Shown here in pieces: positions 22,887 through 32,608 of a stretch of DNA of 64,000 nt; positions within the stretch are counted from its first letter, which is position 1, and each line of letters opens with the position of its first letter. Position numbers and translations under genes: made by a program. This DNA comes from Myxococcales bacterium (GTDB taxonomy: Bacteria > Myxococcota_A > Polyangia > Polyangiales > Polyangiaceae). Below the pieces are notes generated by a model. That model searched no databases and was not told where the DNA came from. It was given only the letters and a program-made list of their open reading frames with translations. Location: positions 1-64,000 of the forward strand of contig JANXLV010000196.1 in assembly GCA_025355005.1 (NCBI GenBank), in the 5' to 3' direction.

Positions 22887-22921
22887 TTCGCGAGTCAGGA
22901 TGTGCAGTGGAGGTTCTGCAC

Positions 22922-23767
22922 ATGAACAATCGCTCTTTCGTCACTGTCTTCGCGCTTCTCGCCGTCGGCTGCTCCTCGTCCTCGTCGGGGACACCGGTCG
23001 GCAACACGGACACGGATGCGGGACACGTCACTGCAGACTCGGGGGCGTCCCAGGAACAGGGCACCGACGCTGGCAGCACGGGCACCGCGGACGCCTCCGA
23101 TGCGGGAACGCACGTCGCGGTTCCCTCCGCGGTCCTGATCGTCGGAACGCTGGCGGATGCGGACCTGACCGTCGCGCAGGGGAAGCACGACCCGGTCGCC
23201 AAGGGCGGCGAGGGGACGTCGAAGATGCTGGGCGACGTGGCGCACACCGTGATGCTGGGCACGGCGCTCCTCGGCACGCAGCAGAACCGGTTCGTCGCGT
23301 TCGATCGCTGGAGCGACGGCGCCAACATCGACGCCTTCTACGGCAGCAAGGATTTCCAGAACGCGCTCGGACCGCTGTTCTCGGCGCCGCCGTCGGTCAA
23401 CGTGTTCGTCGCGCAGCCCGGCTGGTCCACATACGGTACGCCGGACTCTGCGAATGCCACGGACCCGCACTACTGGGTGCTCGTGCGCGGCAAGATGAAG
23501 TCCGCCGACCCGAAGGTGAACCAGGCAACGCACGACGGGATCGCGTCGCAGGCCGCGCCGCAAGCCAAGGCTGCGGGCGACGTCGCGCACGTCGTCTACA
23601 CCGGGCGCGATGACGTCCAGCAGTTCCTCGCAGTCGACGTCTGGCCGGACTCCACCAACATCGAGGCCTTCTACGGCAACCCCAACGTGCAGATGGCGTT
23701 CGGCCAGCTCTTCGACGGCATCCCTACGATCGCCGTCTACTCGTCGACCCACTGGTACCAGTGGTGA
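22922..23767 (+). CDS. Lipoprotein with two tandem alpha-beta domains
   Basis: 281 aa, started by the ATG 8 nt after a perfect GGAGG (22909-22913). Signal peptide with LLAVGC (lipid Cys17), then a Thr/Asp/Ala-rich linker to residue 70. Two similar domains follow, about 75-170 and 185-281. Each has a pattern of GDVAH, then R/QFLAVDxW, then NIxAFYGxxxxQxAxGxLF. The pattern resembles ABM-type dimeric ferredoxin-like folds (EthD/antibiotic monooxygenase-like), but this is inference. Divergent from the AraC-type gene. Confidence 0.75.
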   Translation: MNNRSFVTVFALLAVGCSSSSSGTPVGNTDTDAGHVTADSGASQEQGTDAGSTGTADASDAGTHVAVPSAVLIVGTLADADLTVAQGKHDPVAKGGEGTSKMLGDVAHTVMLGTALLGTQQNRFVAFDRWSDGANIDAFYGSKDFQNALGPLFSAPPSVNVFVAQPGWSTYGTPDSANATDPHYWVLVRGKMKSADPKVNQATHDGIASQAAPQAKAAGDVAHVVYTGRDDVQQFLAVDVWPDSTNIEAFYGNPNVQMAFGQLFDGIPTIAVYSSTHWYQW

Positions 23768-23789: not shown

Positions 23790-26528
23790 TCAGTGAATGC
23801 CGCCGCCGCCACACTGGTTGGGCGTGCCGCCACCGCCGCAGGTCTGCCCGTTGGGGCACATGCCGCAGTCGAGGGCGCCGCCGCAACCGTCGGCGACAAT
23901 GCCGCACGTCGCACCTGCATCCTTGCACGAGCGCGGCGTGCACATCGGTGCGCCGCACTGGCCCGGCGTTCCGCCGCCACCGCACGTCTGACCCATGGGG
24001 CACGTGCCGCACTGGAGCAGGTTGCCGCAGCCGTCCGCAGCCGGACCGCACGCGATGCCCTGAGCCATACAGGTCGTTGCCGAGCAGGAGTTGGAGCCGC
24101 ACATGCTGGGGCCCGCGCCGCCGCAGGTGAGACCCATGCCGCACGTGCCGCAGTCGACCGTTGCACCGCAGCCGTCAGGGATGCTTCCGCACATGCCCAT
24201 CTTGCAAGTCGCCTTGGTGCACGGCGGAGTCACGCACTTCGCGGGGGCGCCTTGGCAGACCTGGCCTGCCGGGCAGACGCCGCAGCTCTGCTGTCCGCCG
24301 CAGCCGTCGGTGGCGGGGCCGCAGGTCTGAGCGCCGCAGCCGATCATCGTGCACGTCGGCGGTGTGACCACGATCGGCTTGATGCACGACGTGAGGTCGA
24401 ACAGCATGTACGCGAGGACCTTCTCCTGGGGAGTGAACGTGGTGCTCACGCACTCGTTCGGGAAGTTCGTCGTGGCGCTGCTGGTATCGCCGGAGACGTG
24501 GAAGTCGGAGAAGATGACGCGCCCGCACTGCGTCGCCTGGTTGAACGGCGTATTGAATGCGTAGTGGAACACAGGCGTGCCCTTCGCACCGGGGCTGTAC
24601 TCCGTGATGTACGGAGTAGCGCCGGCTGCGGCCGGCAGGAAGGCGTCGTAGCGCGGTTGGCTGATGCTGACGCGATCGGGTGCGCCCGTCACGGGGGTCG
24701 CCGCGCACTTGGGATTGGAGGAGGCAACGTTGCAGAGCGCGTTGACGCCCGTCGCGTTGAGCCACTTGTCGAACGTGCCGCCAGCGACCGTCGTGCTGAC
24801 GAGGCCGTCGTCCGGGTCGGCTGTGCCGACGCCCAGGCCGTTCTTGGGGCTCCACTGCACTGACGTGCCCCACGTGGAGCTGTAGAGGTTTGCGGCGGGC
24901 GAGGCCACGTCGTAGAGCCACGTGTAGTTGAAGTGCGTCGCGAACACGCGGCCGCCTTCGTTAGCGTAGTTGTACGCAGCGGTGCGCGCTGCCGTGATCT
25001 TGTCCGTGGGACCACCAGGGCATGCAAAGAGGAGCGCGTCGTACTTCTCCATCTGCGCCTGCGTGGCGACGAGCGAGCTGACGCTCGGCGTGCTGCCGTT
25101 GATGCGCGCGCCGGCAGTGCCGCCGCTCTCGTCATCCTGGTAGAGCTGGATGCGTCCGGTGCCGCCGGGGTTCGTGAACTGCGTGTCGAGGATGCCCATC
25201 TTGCGGAAGACGCACTCGAGCGGGTCGATGTAGCCAGTGGAGAGCGCGAACAGCGGGATGTTGTCCATCGCGCCGCTCTCGGCCTGCTTGGTCGGCATGC
25301 GGATGGTGCCCGCGGTCTGCGCGGCAGTCGTGCACTTCGTGACCGCAGGGATGGTGACGATCTTGCGCCAGCGACCCATCTGAACGACGAGCGGGAAGGA
25401 CACACCAGCGGGAACGTTGCTCAGGCTGAACGAGCCGTCGAAGTCAGTGACGGCGTTGACGAGCGGGGCCCCGCTTGCAGTGCCGTTGCACGTGTCGCAG
25501 GTGCCGCCGGCCACACCGTCCGTGAAGGCGGTGACGCCGTACGGGTAGGCCAGCGAGCCGTTCGGGACGTAGACGACCGCGCCGGGTAGCGGCAGAGTGC
25601 CGTTCGGCGCGAACACCTTGCCGGTGATCGTCGTCTGCGAGTTTATCGGGCACACGGCCTGGTTGAGACAGAAGTTCACGCACGTGCCGGCGTCGAGGCC
25701 GCCGCCCGTGCCGCACTTGTTCGAGCCGCCGCCGCCGCAGAAGCCGACCGCGCAGCCCGCGTTCGCCATGCTGCCGCCGCAGTCGAGCAAGCCGCCGCAG
25801 CCATCGGCGACGTAGCCGCAGTTCGCGCCAGCGGCCGCGCACGTGGTCTTCACGCACGCGGGAGCGCCGCACATGCTGGCGACGCCACCACCACCGCAGC
25901 TCTGGCCCGCGGCGCAGCCGCCGCAGGTAAGGATGCCGCCGCAACCGTCCGCGACCGGACCGCACTCATTCGCGACGCACACAGTCCGCGGTGCGCAGAT
26001 GCCGCCGTCGGGGAGGACCGACATGCCGCCGTCGTTGATCAGACCGCCGCCGCACTGGCTCGGGCCGCCACCGCCGCAGAACTGCGGGACGGGGCAGGTG
26101 CCGCAGTTGGCGAGCGTGCCGCCACAACCGTCACCCGCAGGTCCGCACGCGACCTTCTGCTGTGCACACGTGCGCGGGACGCAGCCTGCCGTGCCGCCGC
26201 AGACGCTGGCCTTGCCACCGCCACCGCAGGTCTCGGGCACGGTACATGTGCCGCACTGGATCTTGCCGCCACATCCATCACCCGCAGGGCCGCAGTTGAT
26301 GCCGAGGTCCTTGCATGTGAGTGCCTTGCACGAGCCGCTTCCGCTGCCGGTTTTGCCGCCATCTTTGCCGGTGCCGAAGCCCGTGGGGAGGCCGCCTTCG
26401 GACTCGTCGATGCCGGAATCGAACCCGTCACCGCCCGCGAACTGGCTTCCGTCGCCGGAGCCGCACGACGCAGCCGCGATGCCCACTCCAATCAACGCCA
26501 GCGAGCCAAGCAAAAGCTGCAGCTTCAT
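23790..26528 (-). CDS. Cys-rich repeat lipoprotein with a GATase-like central domain
   Basis: 912 aa. The ATG at 26528 follows GGAGG by 5 nt. Signal peptide with AAASC (lipid Cys22). Four Cys-rich repeats (about 67-275) and four more near the C-terminus (about 730-905) follow one plan: C-x4-C, then CGP-x-xDGCGG, then CGxC and TCGGGG. Between them, TITGKVFAPNG...DFDGSFSLSNVPAG is a carboxypeptidase-regulatory-like beta-sandwich. Next comes a domain with YDALLFACPGG, GGRVFATHFN and GRVIFSDFHVSG, a pattern like class I glutamine-amidotransferase/ThuA folds, though without an evident nucleophile Cys elbow. Surface or secreted protein; role unknown. Confidence 0.8.
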   Translation of the reverse strand: MKLQLLLGSLALIGVGIAAASCGSGDGSQFAGGDGFDSGIDESEGGLPTGFGTGKDGGKTGSGSGSCKALTCKDLGINCGPAGDGCGGKIQCGTCTVPETCGGGGKASVCGGTAGCVPRTCAQQKVACGPAGDGCGGTLANCGTCPVPQFCGGGGPSQCGGGLINDGGMSVLPDGGICAPRTVCVANECGPVADGCGGILTCGGCAAGQSCGGGGVASMCGAPACVKTTCAAAGANCGYVADGCGGLLDCGGSMANAGCAVGFCGGGGSNKCGTGGGLDAGTCVNFCLNQAVCPINSQTTITGKVFAPNGTLPLPGAVVYVPNGSLAYPYGVTAFTDGVAGGTCDTCNGTASGAPLVNAVTDFDGSFSLSNVPAGVSFPLVVQMGRWRKIVTIPAVTKCTTAAQTAGTIRMPTKQAESGAMDNIPLFALSTGYIDPLECVFRKMGILDTQFTNPGGTGRIQLYQDDESGGTAGARINGSTPSVSSLVATQAQMEKYDALLFACPGGPTDKITAARTAAYNYANEGGRVFATHFNYTWLYDVASPAANLYSSTWGTSVQWSPKNGLGVGTADPDDGLVSTTVAGGTFDKWLNATGVNALCNVASSNPKCAATPVTGAPDRVSISQPRYDAFLPAAAGATPYITEYSPGAKGTPVFHYAFNTPFNQATQCGRVIFSDFHVSGDTSSATTNFPNECVSTTFTPQEKVLAYMLFDLTSCIKPIVVTPPTCTMIGCGAQTCGPATDGCGGQQSCGVCPAGQVCQGAPAKCVTPPCTKATCKMGMCGSIPDGCGATVDCGTCGMGLTCGGAGPSMCGSNSCSATTCMAQGIACGPAADGCGNLLQCGTCPMGQTCGGGGTPGQCGAPMCTPRSCKDAGATCGIVADGCGGALDCGMCPNGQTCGGGGTPNQCGGGGIH

Positions 26529-26696
26529 GAAACCTCCGTTGCCCAGCGCGCAAGGCCCTCGACTCGCACGCAGTGAGCTAATTCTTCTCATACTACACGA
26601 AAATTACGGCCGCGTTGGCGTCAATTGGGACAACCCGATCCCGTTCTTGATCTCGGCATTGCTATCCGTGGCGGGCCAGGGCTATGTACCGCGACG

Positions 26697-27938
26697 ATGA
26701 CTCGCCGCTGGCTCACGCTCGGTCTCCTGGTTTTCGCCCCGTTCGCCGTCCTCGTTGCTTGCAGCAGCAGCAACAACAACGGTGGCAACTCCGATGGCGG
26801 CGCTGACGGCAGCGGCGGTATCGTGGCCGCGTGCGGCGCCTGCACCGCGAACGCCGAGTGCGCCGGTTCTGGCTTTGCGTGCGCCGGCTCCGTGTGCACC
26901 AAGCAGTGCAGCATCGACACGGACTGCGCGGGCATCGGCCCCGCTGCATGTGACCAGGGCGTCTGCGGCTGCAAGGGCCACACGACCCCCATCTGCGGCG
27001 CGTGCACCTCCACCACCGACTGCGTCACCGGCGCGCGATGTCTGCTGGGTACGTGCAAGCCCGAGACCACGCAGGCCACCTGCAGCGCGACCAACGCGTG
27101 CAAGGCGCCGCTCCAGTGCGATCCGGACCTGGGCTGCATCTGCGCCGCCGCCGGGACGGTCGACGGAGGGCAGGGCGCGGGCAGCGGCCTCGTGACCGTG
27201 GTCTGCCAGGGCGCGGTCACGGATGCAGGCGCGATGAGCACCTTCGGGAGCTGCGCCGGAAGCGCGTCGTTCAACACCGGCTTCGCGCCTGGCACCGGCT
27301 ACACCGTCACCACCACCGCCGTGAACGCGTCGATCACCGAGATCGCGTACTCCGGCAAGGTCGCGGCCGTGCCGACGGCGCTCTCCGCGGGCGAGATCTC
27401 CTTCACGGGACCCGCCAGCACGCTGAACATGCCGCCTGACTCCAAGAATGCGTACGCGGCGACGTCGGGACTTCCGCTCGGCGTCATCGGCGACACGGTG
27501 ACCATCGCGGCAGCTGGCGCAGCCATCCCGAAGTTCTCGTCGATGCTGGCGCTGCCGCCCATCGCCTCGCTGTCCAGCCCGATACAGCCGTCGGCAGGCG
27601 CCCCGCTGGTGCTCGATCACACGATGCCGCTCACGGTCATCGCGTCGAGCGCGACGGACGGGAAGCTCGTCGTGATCCTCACGTCGGCGAAGAGCGCTTC
27701 GGCCCTTGTCGTCCTTCGCGGCGAAGGGCAGGTCATGGGCGGCTCGGGCGGGGTGACGTTCCCGGCGGCGGCCCTCGCGCTCTTGCCCACGGGCGCAGGC
27801 GGCACGATCCAGATGTACATGGCGAACGACGCAACGGTGATCTCCGGCGGCACGCCGATCAAGATCACGGTCGCCTCGCAGCTCTACGACGGCAACGGAG
27901 ATCCCGTCTTCGCGTTGACGCCGCTCACCGTGCAGTGA
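26697..27938 (+). CDS. Cys-rich lipoprotein, 413 aa
   Basis: ATG at 26697 chosen because it opens with a normal signal (TRRWLTLGLLVF) ending VLVAC (lipid Cys22). The region 45-160 has 24 or so Cys in EGF/Dickkopf-like spacing (CGACT, CAGSV, CTKQC, CDQGVCGC, CGACTS, CLLGTC). The remaining 250 residues are beta-rich without Cys after residue 215, with repeated AxVxxT patterns, and look like a surface beta-sandwich. Divergent from the 912-aa Cys-rich lipoprotein gene. Function unknown. Confidence 0.75.
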   Translation: MTRRWLTLGLLVFAPFAVLVACSSSNNNGGNSDGGADGSGGIVAACGACTANAECAGSGFACAGSVCTKQCSIDTDCAGIGPAACDQGVCGCKGHTTPICGACTSTTDCVTGARCLLGTCKPETTQATCSATNACKAPLQCDPDLGCICAAAGTVDGGQGAGSGLVTVVCQGAVTDAGAMSTFGSCAGSASFNTGFAPGTGYTVTTTAVNASITEIAYSGKVAAVPTALSAGEISFTGPASTLNMPPDSKNAYAATSGLPLGVIGDTVTIAAAGAAIPKFSSMLALPPIASLSSPIQPSAGAPLVLDHTMPLTVIASSATDGKLVVILTSAKSASALVVLRGEGQVMGGSGGVTFPAAALALLPTGAGGTIQMYMANDATVISGGTPIKITVASQLYDGNGDPVFALTPLTVQ

Positions 27939-30408: not shown

Positions 30409-30535
30409 CGGCCGATTACACAGGTTTGTGCGGCTTTTCGCAACGACTCCTGCGACGATAGACAGCGTAACCTTCCGCCCCGCCGGACGTAGACATCCAC
30501 AGGCTGGGGAGCGGGGGACGGGTCCGGAGACTCAG

Positions 30536-32608
30536 ATGCACGACACCGACACCTTGCGTCTCGTCGGCACAACCATCGATGGGAAGTACCACATCGACGC
30601 CATCGCCGGCGCGGGCGGTGCTGCGACGGTGTATCGCGCGACCCATGTGACCTGGGGCCGGACCGTCGCGGTGAAGGTGATCCGCAACCTCAGCACCATG
30701 AAGGAGTCTGCGCGGCCCGAGGTCCTTGCGAAGCTCGTGGTCGAGGCAGAGCTCCTTGCCTCCCTGTCCGAGCAGACAGCAGCCATCGTGCAGGCCTACG
30801 ACATCGGCACACTGACGACCGCCGCGGGCGACTGGGCTCCGTACCTCGTGCTGTCGTGGCTCTCCGGCGCCACGCTCGAGGCGGTTCTCGACGAGGAGGA
30901 GCAGGCGGGGCTCGCGCCGCGCTCGCTCGCGCAGGCAGCGGTGCTGCTCACGCCGGCCGCGAACGCGCTAGCACTGGCTCATGCGCGCGGCATCGCCCAC
31001 CGCGACATCAAGCCGGGCAATCTGTTCGTGACGGGTGCGCCGCGGGGGATCGATGCGTCGATCAAGGTGCTCGATTTCGGTATCGCCAAGGTCGTCGCCG
31101 ATGCGAAGAGCCTCGAGGGCTTCAACTCGACCCTCGCTGACCTCACGTCGTTCACGCCTGCGTATGGTGCGCCGGAGCAGTTCTCCAAGGCGGTCGGACC
31201 GACGGGACCATGGACGGATGTGTATGGTCTGGCGCTGGTCGTGCTCGAGGTGGCGGTGGGGCGCGGGCTCGCCACCGGAGACGACATCGGGCAGCTGGCC
31301 TACGCGACCACGCGCGCATCGGTGAGGCCCACGCCGCGGCAGTTGGGCATGGCGGTGACGGACGAGGTCGAGGCCGTGATGGCACGAGCGCTCGCGGTTC
31401 GAATCGCAGACCGGTACGAGAACGTCGGCGCATTCTGGGCAGCGCTCACCGGCGCGCTGGGTGTCGACGCGTCCGCGCTTCCGTCGTCGCTCTCACGCGT
31501 CTCGATCGCAGATGGTCCGCGGTCTTCCCGCCGCCGCGTCCCGCTGGCGATCGAGAGCGCGGCGACGCTTCCCGTGCAGGTCCCGGACGTGCCCGAGACA
31601 CCGCCGTCGGCGCCCGGCACGGAGACTCCGGGTGCGCGTCGTCGGCCACGAAGGTGGGTCATTCCGGCGTCGCTCGTGGGGTTGACGTTCACGGCGGGTG
31701 CTCTGGCCACGCTCGTGCACCTCGCGCGCGCAACGCCGCACGCCCAGCCGATCTCCAGCGCCGCGAGCGCAGTCGTTGCTGCGCCGCCGGTCTCCGTGCC
31801 GCCCGGCTGCCCTTTTGGAATGGTGATGGTCAGCGGCGGCAAGTTCTTCATGGGCTCCGACGACGCGGACGCGATGCCGCAGGAGAAGCCGCAGCACAAG
31901 GTGATCTTGCATGCATACTGCATCGATCGCACCGAGGTGACCCTTGCGGCCTACAAGAGCTGCAGCGACACGGGCGGATGCAAGCGTGCCGGCGTCAGCA
32001 ACACGTGGCCGGGGATCAGCAAGACCGAGCAGAAGACCTATGACCCGCTCTGCAACGCGATTGCGCCCGACGCGCGCGGCACGCATCCGGTGAACTGCGT
32101 GGACCACGCGCAGGCGGACAACTACTGCCGCGAGCAAAAAAAGCGCCTTCCCACGGAGGCCGAGTGGGAGCTCTCGGCGCGCGGGCCCGACGGCAGGCGA
32201 TACCCGTGGGGCGACGAGGCACCATCCCCCGAGCGCATGAACGCATGCGGCGCCGAGTGCGCGCGGTGGGGCAAGAGCGTCAACACGGAGCTCCCCGCCA
32301 TGTTCGCAGGCGACGACGGATGGGTGCATACTGCACCTGTTGGCTCGTACCCCGCCGGCGCGTCGCGCTATGGCCTCGTGGATGTGGTGGGCAACGTGTG
32401 GGAGTGGGTCTCCGATGGCTACGCGCCTTACGCGGAGGCAGAAGCCATCTCGCCCAAGGGCCAGGACGATGCCCCGACGCGCGTCATTCGCGGCGGTGCG
32501 TGGAACGGCTCCGAGGCGAGCTGGGTGAGGCCGACGTTCCGCTATGGCAGCGCGCCCACCGTCCGCAGCCACGGCATCGGGTTCCGCTGCGCGGCGGATG
32601 TGAAGTGA
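30536..32608 (+). CDS. Ser/Thr protein kinase fused to an FGE-type domain
   Basis: 690 aa. ATG at 30536 follows GGAG by 6 nt. The cytoplasmic kinase (about 12-285) has a glycine loop GAGGAATVY, VAVKVI Lys, HRDIKPGN (Asp157 base) and DFG (Asp180). A basic linker and one membrane segment (about 377-400) lead to a C-terminal FGE/SUMF1-type domain (about 440-690) with GKFFMGS, LPTEAEWELSARG, GNVWEWVSDG, RGGAWN and GFRCA. The domain is thus placed outside the membrane as a possible sensor or effector. Such fusions are known in myxobacteria and related phyla; the link between sensor domain and kinase is inferred. Confidence 0.92.
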   Translation: MHDTDTLRLVGTTIDGKYHIDAIAGAGGAATVYRATHVTWGRTVAVKVIRNLSTMKESARPEVLAKLVVEAELLASLSEQTAAIVQAYDIGTLTTAAGDWAPYLVLSWLSGATLEAVLDEEEQAGLAPRSLAQAAVLLTPAANALALAHARGIAHRDIKPGNLFVTGAPRGIDASIKVLDFGIAKVVADAKSLEGFNSTLADLTSFTPAYGAPEQFSKAVGPTGPWTDVYGLALVVLEVAVGRGLATGDDIGQLAYATTRASVRPTPRQLGMAVTDEVEAVMARALAVRIADRYENVGAFWAALTGALGVDASALPSSLSRVSIADGPRSSRRRVPLAIESAATLPVQVPDVPETPPSAPGTETPGARRRPRRWVIPASLVGLTFTAGALATLVHLARATPHAQPISSAASAVVAAPPVSVPPGCPFGMVMVSGGKFFMGSDDADAMPQEKPQHKVILHAYCIDRTEVTLAAYKSCSDTGGCKRAGVSNTWPGISKTEQKTYDPLCNAIAPDARGTHPVNCVDHAQADNYCREQKKRLPTEAEWELSARGPDGRRYPWGDEAPSPERMNACGAECARWGKSVNTELPAMFAGDDGWVHTAPVGSYPAGASRYGLVDVVGNVWEWVSDGYAPYAEAEAISPKGQDDAPTRVIRGGAWNGSEASWVRPTFRYGSAPTVRSHGIGFRCAADVK

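Follow-up and report, generated by a model that had tools for sequence, protein, structure and literature searches.

Equal numbers of eight-cysteine repeats on either side of a predicted ThuA-like core in a family of putative myxobacterial lipoproteins, and a possible two-stranded stalk

The window, by which the whole stretch of 64,000 nucleotides of myxobacterial DNA analysed here is meant, contains on its (-) strand a gene (23790..26528) that translates without internal stop into a protein of 912 amino acids followed by a stop codon; all features of this protein given below lie on the same (-) strand. Its first 22 residues (26463..26528) read as a signal peptide ending in a lipobox-like ...AAAS-C22 motif, an assignment read off the sequence without the aid of a predictor, in which Cys22 is predicted to be lipidated, and they are succeeded by a Gly/Ser/Asp-rich tether of 44 residues (23-66; 26331..26462). 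The N-terminal arm (N-arm) comprises four units with an 8-Cys pattern, namely residues 67-110 (26199..26330), 116-159 (26052..26183), 178-220 (25869..25997) and 225-272 (25713..25856). The core consists of a carboxypeptidase-regulatory-like beta-sandwich (residues ~283-403; 25320..25682), delimited by sub-threshold Pfam matches and the strands of an AlphaFold2 (AF2) model, and of a ThuA/GATase1-like domain (residues ~405-718; 24375..25316), predicted from the AF2 model, structural matches, conserved columns and an hhalign alignment to ThuA. The C-terminal arm (C-arm) again displays four 8-Cys units at residues 726-765 (24234..24353), 770-810 (24099..24221), 815-858 (23955..24086) and 863-906 (23811..23942), the last three delimited with the list of cysteine positions, and the protein terminates six residues past the last of them. 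According to the same list, units 2 and 3 of the N-arm are separated by 18 residues, and all other gaps in both arms measure 4-5 residues.

The preliminary description of this locus had proposed four-plus-four Cys-rich repeats around a core, which is borne out by the four 8-Cys units per side as well as by eight copies of the motif CG-x3-DGCG, which in 20000 shuffled versions of this protein was present once (43 cases) or not at all (19957 cases). By eye, the protein ends in CGGGGIH with neither a hydrophobic segment nor a C-terminal anchor signal, and an L-P-x-T-G motif is absent from its translation. Surface exposure is inferred and rests solely on the putative lipobox and the low-complexity tether. 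Hence, of the undescribed surface architecture formerly suggested, the lack of a known family for both the ThuA-like half and the repeat stands, while its location at the surface remains an inference. The gene is flanked by two lipoprotein-like genes (by eye) on the opposite strand, 22907-23767 (+) and 26625-27938 (+), one of which has a sub-threshold ABM match and the other no Pfam family. Farther along, at 30428-32608 (+), a protein kinase domain is fused to an FGE-sulfatase (formylglycine-generating-like) domain.

With regard to the core, the best Pfam match of the 912-aa protein was CarboxypepD_reg (E 0.0028, 18.4 bits against a cut-off of 32.3); at E 1, two sub-threshold models of this family (PF13620/PF13715) and nothing else were listed, and a match above the cut-off was not obtained. 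Among 32 aligned cores, 30 gave a match to PF13620 with E no higher than 1 (7.7e-6 at best), which together with the AF2 strands upholds the carboxypeptidase-regulatory beta-sandwich of the preliminary description. NCBIfam offered no family for the protein, and for the ThuA-like half no family above cut-off was found in Pfam (searched with the protein and 32 cores) or NCBIfam (protein only). PF06283 (ThuA) was absent from the Pfam listings at E 1 of both the protein and the 32 cores, one of which gave DUF4159 at E 0.15, and no match to PF06283 occurred anywhere in the window's genome. A PDB sequence search with the protein yielded no match at E 1, and four PDB sequence matches of the core profile (E 0.37-0.78) were taken as chance.

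The AF2 model of residues 279-732, built with 81 relatives, reached a pLDDT of 88.8 and a pTM of 0.91. Residues ~405-718 matched the ThuA-like structure 4jqs (Z 15.4, rmsd 3.4, 214 residues), followed by 4pxy (Z 15.1), the GATase1-like 3rht (14.3) and, further down the list, a GH42 chain (13.7) and various GATases, and on the strength of this model the second part of the core is predicted to possess a ThuA/GATase1-like fold. In an hhalign comparison of the core with four ThuA sequences, 49 columns were aligned at 36% probability with H532 opposite the elbow His of ThuA. At this elbow position, which is based on the ThuA alignment and the order of strands, a strand is followed by T-H; the His is invariant in 82 rows and the Cys nucleophile of GATases is absent. 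C503, H532 and H677 are invariant and D675 is nearly so across the 82 sequences. Since these residues are conserved without a Cys at the elbow, the head keeps a polar site but not the GATase nucleophile, and it is inferred to be a binding or ThuA-like processing pocket; the literature on ThuA function provided nothing usable. The GATase-like core that had been proposed, along with modelling of this region, therefore holds as far as the fold and the strands of the sandwich are concerned but fails at the catalytic nucleophile, which is replaced by His. In addition, joint loss of cysteines across 152 cores hints at the disulfide pairs 293-399, 439-693 and 344-668, and leaves bonding between the core ends (Cys 283, 287 and 715) unsettled.

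The repeat unit most commonly follows the spacing C-x4-C-x6-C-x6-C-x5-C-x2-C-x5-C-x8-C (417 of the 641 distinct units that a motif recovered from the loci available at that stage), and disulfide bonding of its eight cysteines is inferred. A profile of the arrays found no match among PDB sequences, and in Pfam only three families were matched, each of them by a single array out of 58 (E 0.06-0.45), which was ascribed to chance. The AF2 model of the C-arm combined fair local confidence (pLDDT 83.9) with a pTM of 0.42, a pattern resembling beads on a string; hence, the placement of the units relative to each other is undetermined. Foldseek returned a best E of only 1.1 for this model, with TNF-receptor-type chains on top of the list, and no VIA match emerged at Z 2 (72 chains). 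The absence of a structural match for the repeat does not demonstrate a new fold. Two findings had been named beforehand as refuting the preliminary description, a known family for the core and a known domain for the repeat, and neither was met.

A search of all proteomes with a repeat profile had also been suggested; it was carried out on 188 sampled genomes of the phylum, of which 65 matched. The repeat also occurs on proteins with HINT, IgGFc_binding, DUF5722 or C39-peptidase domains, and among 26 repeat proteins without a ThuA-like core, mostly hand-picked from the list of profile matches in the phylum, 25 carry a single repeat block. The sole two-sided case is a protein of the window's own genome (L023:1091-3223, contig C123), in which IgGFc_binding (E 2.7e-64) has one Cys-repeat on either side. 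Another protein of this genome (L022:1365-2858, contig C155) features seven Cys-repeats and then a C-terminal PT-HINT domain (E 1.3e-7), and is possibly a repeat-bearing, self-processing lipoprotein. In distant members of the phylum (L170, L171, L177, L183), Cys-repeat arrays precede DUF5722 on its N-terminal side, and in a neighbouring ORF of L171 such an array lies N-terminal to a C39-type peptidase. Judged by this distribution of sequences, the Cys-repeat appears to be a general module.

The core itself is widespread in the phylum: its profile matches 99 of 282 sampled genomes, and of 108 genomes sampled from the window's family, 93 contain a match to the full protein, be it on the core or on the repeats. 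The window's genome encodes two additional repeat-bearing members (4:4 and 8:8, N-units to C-units) and about ten core-only members, three of which lie near one another (L025, contig C10:17500-27500), so that the family seems to expand locally too. From the 446 relatives that a scan of named genomes produced, the 80 best were retained, and these bear 64 myxobacterial names, 14 times the name delta proteobacterium, and once each Proteobacteria and Actinomycetota. Viral relatives were not found with six short peptide patterns from the core. Clustering of the ORFs around the gene and the 80 relatives revealed no widespread conserved neighbour or partner gene, the protein itself forming the single cluster common to nearly all loci. 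Of the other clusters, two (16 and 12 loci) had the appearance of antisense frames and were rejected, and two small ones comprise 5 and 4 loci.

The symmetric plan extends beyond what the preliminary description could know, as equal numbers of units on both sides hold for most of the family. With one unit profile applied alike to every member, of the 126 complete and nonredundant ORFs that bear repeats, 109 have the same count on the N- and the C-side and 118 have counts within one of each other, compared to a mean of 20.3 and a maximum of 37 equal members in 10000 permutations of the counts. Thinning for core identity left 84 of 98 (<70%) and 34 of 38 (<50%) members equal, and in an earlier set of 152 core ORFs, all complete and nonredundant, 30 lacked repeats and 106 of the 122 that had them were equal, over a range from 1:1 to 11:11. 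The lengths of the arms in residues, taken from the first detected N-unit to the core and from the core to the C-terminus, correlate as well (r 0.89, 120 proteins). Equal counts are thus a rule of the family that holds in most of its members.

Counting is sensitive to the method, and an artefact of counting or sampling has to be considered, given that weak units and frameshifts alter the counts: a rebuilt unit profile with stricter merging found 97 of 122 members equal, and a stricter motif counter, which misses weak units, 75 of 126. Even the latter, however, exceeds its permutation maximum of 33 and places 111 of 126 members within one, and the correlation of arm lengths speaks against an artefact too, which renders this explanation hardly tenable. 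A loose Cys motif, by which 86 of 124 members were within one and 45 equal, against at most 24 equal in permutations, was discarded, because it catches unit ends too. The 17 unequal members were re-read by sequence and the equal ones were not; hence, the headline remains the unread 109 of 126. In L039 another frame holds three more units, L124, L212 and L224 are equal by eye once weak units are counted, L099 appears to be cut by a frame change, and L251, when read by eye, shows nine or more N-units versus ten. Truly unequal are five members (L062 6:4, L084 6:5, L090 7:8, L100 8:4 and L236 2:3), two are 0:1 (L245, L250), and the remaining four (L082, L227, L235, L268) possess proline-rich tails.

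On the core tree of the 152-ORF set, counts change on 69 of 302 branches. The change is identical on both sides on 46 of these, affects both sides unequally on 8, the N-side only on 10 and the C-side only on 5, which amounts to 54 branches of coincident change as compared to 12.5 expected by chance. Contrasts of N against C counts correlate with r 0.90, or 0.89 without core-only tips, and in a second tree small groups with paired arms (4:4, 6:6, 6:6, 7:7; 4:4, 8:8) are situated within a mostly core-only clade. The nearest unit of a given unit belongs to the same array in 756 cases and to the opposite array in 366, with 500 'same' expected, and no clear unit-for-unit match between N- and C-arrays was evident in either register. 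Since the arrays are not copies of one another, separate growth is inferred, with equality being kept by selection.

In four complete relatives, the C-array is replaced by a Pro-rich tail (55-73% Pro), and N-units numbering 4, 4, 5 and 7 are accompanied by tails of 44, 44, 53 and 64 aa. In 49 core-only members the median tail is 14 aa (range 6-51), a baseline that omits 4 of 53 such members with longer or unmatched tails. With this median as fifth point, tail length follows 14.7 + 7.3 residues per N-unit (r 0.997), and the four alone give 17.9 + 6.7 per unit (r 0.992). Moreover, by the strict motif a Tyr or Phe directly precedes the third Cys in 20 of 20 N-units of these four relatives, versus 9 of 558 N-units and 7 of 570 C-units in other members; a first count with a loose motif (19/29 versus 45/847) was superseded. 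Three genes at contig ends with aromatic N-units were left out of the counts, in two of which a Pro-rich tail starts (L219, L297) and one of which is cut earlier (L296). The class is small, comprising four complete proteins of which two are closely related, and it was defined by the tail prior to tree building. On the core tree L082 groups with two-arm members and its three counterparts lie within a mostly core-only clade, and a single clade of the four and one partial gene was rejected (p-AU 0.00018). Aromatic N-units and Pro tail either arose twice, or arm and tail moved jointly; both point to a functional pair.

What has been observed, from the architecture and the equality of counts to their joint change along the tree, the length match of the tails and the aromatic switch, may be accommodated by a lipid-anchored myxobacterial envelope protein in which the two arms together form a two-stranded stalk bearing the core at its tip, a reading that we hold to be probable yet far from assured. 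In such a stalk, the inferred N-terminal lipid would anchor the base, and the N- and C-arms, as strings of small, presumably disulfide-bonded units, would run alongside each other, contact and register of the arms being inferred. The core, composed of beta-sandwich and ThuA-like domain, would be located at the turn, away from the membrane, and act as a binding or processing head, a role that is inferred, as is its display at the surface. The number of units would set the length of the stalk, and the lengths would have to agree between the arms, for which reason selection would keep the counts equal. In some relatives a polyproline rod would serve as second strand in place of a second array. 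Polyproline rises 0.31 nm per residue, so that 7.3 tail residues per unit imply a span of roughly 2.3 nm per unit and thereby a stalk of about 9 nm for the 912-aa protein and about 25 nm for an 11:11 member, all of which are inferences. Structure models cover the core and one arm only and never both arms together, and the antiparallel hairpin is likewise inferred. In total mutual information, antiparallel pairing of N- and C-units ranked 1/2, 4/24, 9/120, 84/720 and 165/598 and parallel pairing 2/2, 23/24, 53/120, 530/720 and 342/598, but this advantage was not repeated by a second score or a distance-based test. The two-stranded stalk is further challenged by the truly unequal members and the two 0:1 members, by the unmatched 18-residue linker in the N-arm of the 912-aa protein, by the small number of proline-tail members, and by the lack of any ligand, partner gene or widely conserved neighbour found.

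Equal counts and length-matched proline-rich tails would be explained just as well by a bipod, in which the arms do not touch but both reach the same plane of membrane or envelope, the N-arm by its lipid and the C-arm by binding. Such an arrangement leaves the aromatic residue in N-units that accompany a proline-rich arm (20/20 versus 9/558) unexplained and would require attachment of a C-terminus that ends six residues past the last unit with no anchor signal visible, and we regard it as unlikely, though worth keeping in view. The aromatic switch does not discriminate between pairing within and between molecules, as either kind predicts both it and the count rule. The N-arm of one molecule might hence pair with the C-arm of another in a dimer or polymer; no data of this analysis bear on the oligomeric state. 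Here, the difficulty is that one genome may hold members of different lengths, such as the 4:4, 4:4 and 8:8 of the window's genome, among which mispairing would have to be avoided, and pairing between molecules is considered quite improbable.

Alternatively, array length might be copied without selection by recombination, be it through conversion of one array by the other or through repeated gain of ready-made genes. In favour of this, though by reasoning only, the arrays are repetitive and share homology, and duplication of an entire gene would leave equal counts equal. Such a neutral mechanism is disfavoured, and in our estimation very unlikely, because N- and C-units are not mutual copies, the identical count change recurs on 46 branches of the inferred tree, and proline-rich tails match in length too, yet cannot originate from conversion of the N-array. 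The two-stranded stalk is accordingly retained as the preferred reading. Its strongest form, on which we are evenly divided, would be a length-programmable stalk of disulfide units, in which the N-units all contact the opposite arm, be it an array or a polyproline rod, and the arms evolve in step over 1-11 units. Within the limited literature consulted, we know of no other described family with coupled copy numbers of two separated repeat arrays of the same chain over such a range.

In general, repeat numbers in proteins drift, while here two distant arrays change in step, which constitutes evidence of physical coupling obtained from sequence only, and the proline-tail fit supplies a ruler of about 7.3 tail residues per unit. 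The analysis also describes a protein family that is common in Myxococcota and has no name in Pfam or NCBIfam, together with an 8-Cys unit that Pfam does not list; most surface receptors of these bacteria are unknown. In the accessible portions of the open-access literature, nothing seemingly related to the repeat or the architecture was found in myxobacteria apart from TraA; a description elsewhere is possible.

TraA of Myxococcus, as far as the accessible text on it goes, is a receptor for cell-surface recognition whose Cys-rich tandem repeats have been proposed to form a stalk (PMC6372800), and thus is likewise a myxobacterial surface protein of tandem Cys-rich build. According to the same text, however, its repeats measure ~20 aa, lie on one side of the head and are joined by a MYXO-CTERM sorting segment, whereas the 912-aa protein has units of ~44 aa on both sides and, by eye, no MYXO-CTERM; PA14 is not listed by Pfam for the 912-aa protein, the head of TraA itself being described as a distant PA14 relative (PMC6372800). 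The core shares with ThuA (PF06283) and class I GATases the predicted fold, and the 49 columns aligned at 36% probability would put H532 opposite the ThuA elbow His, but the core lacks a PF06283 match and is fused to a beta-sandwich and arms. Two equal-length arms of one chain, paired in antiparallel fashion, are also known from SMC/Rad50, which differ in being cytoplasmic coiled coils, and no relation in sequence or fold is proposed. The closest parallel in plan concerns the streptococcal antigen I/II adhesins SpaP, SspB and BspA, for which the accessible text describes alanine-rich repeats on the N-side, a central globular domain and proline-rich repeats on the C-side, the flanking segments intertwining into a stalk by which the domain between them is raised (PMC7732690, PMC3707005). 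In SpaP, according to these partially available sources, the stalk is made by A-domain tyrosines that interlock with PxxP pockets on the P-domain (PMC7732690; also PMC3707005), and aromatic N-units facing a Pro tail would be the same kind of chemistry. The equal counts, the length-matched tails and the aromatic switch are compatible with such a paired-stalk plan, without a structure of both arms to support it. On the other hand, the myxobacterial arms are strings of 8-Cys units, of the same repeat kind on both sides in most repeat-bearing relatives, the hosts are Gram-negative, the anchor is a predicted N-terminal lipid, the core is ThuA-like, and neither an AgI/II domain among the Pfam matches of the 912-aa protein nor an LPXTG motif is present. 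By analogy, the proposed stalk would hence resemble that of streptococcal antigen I/II while being unrelated to it.
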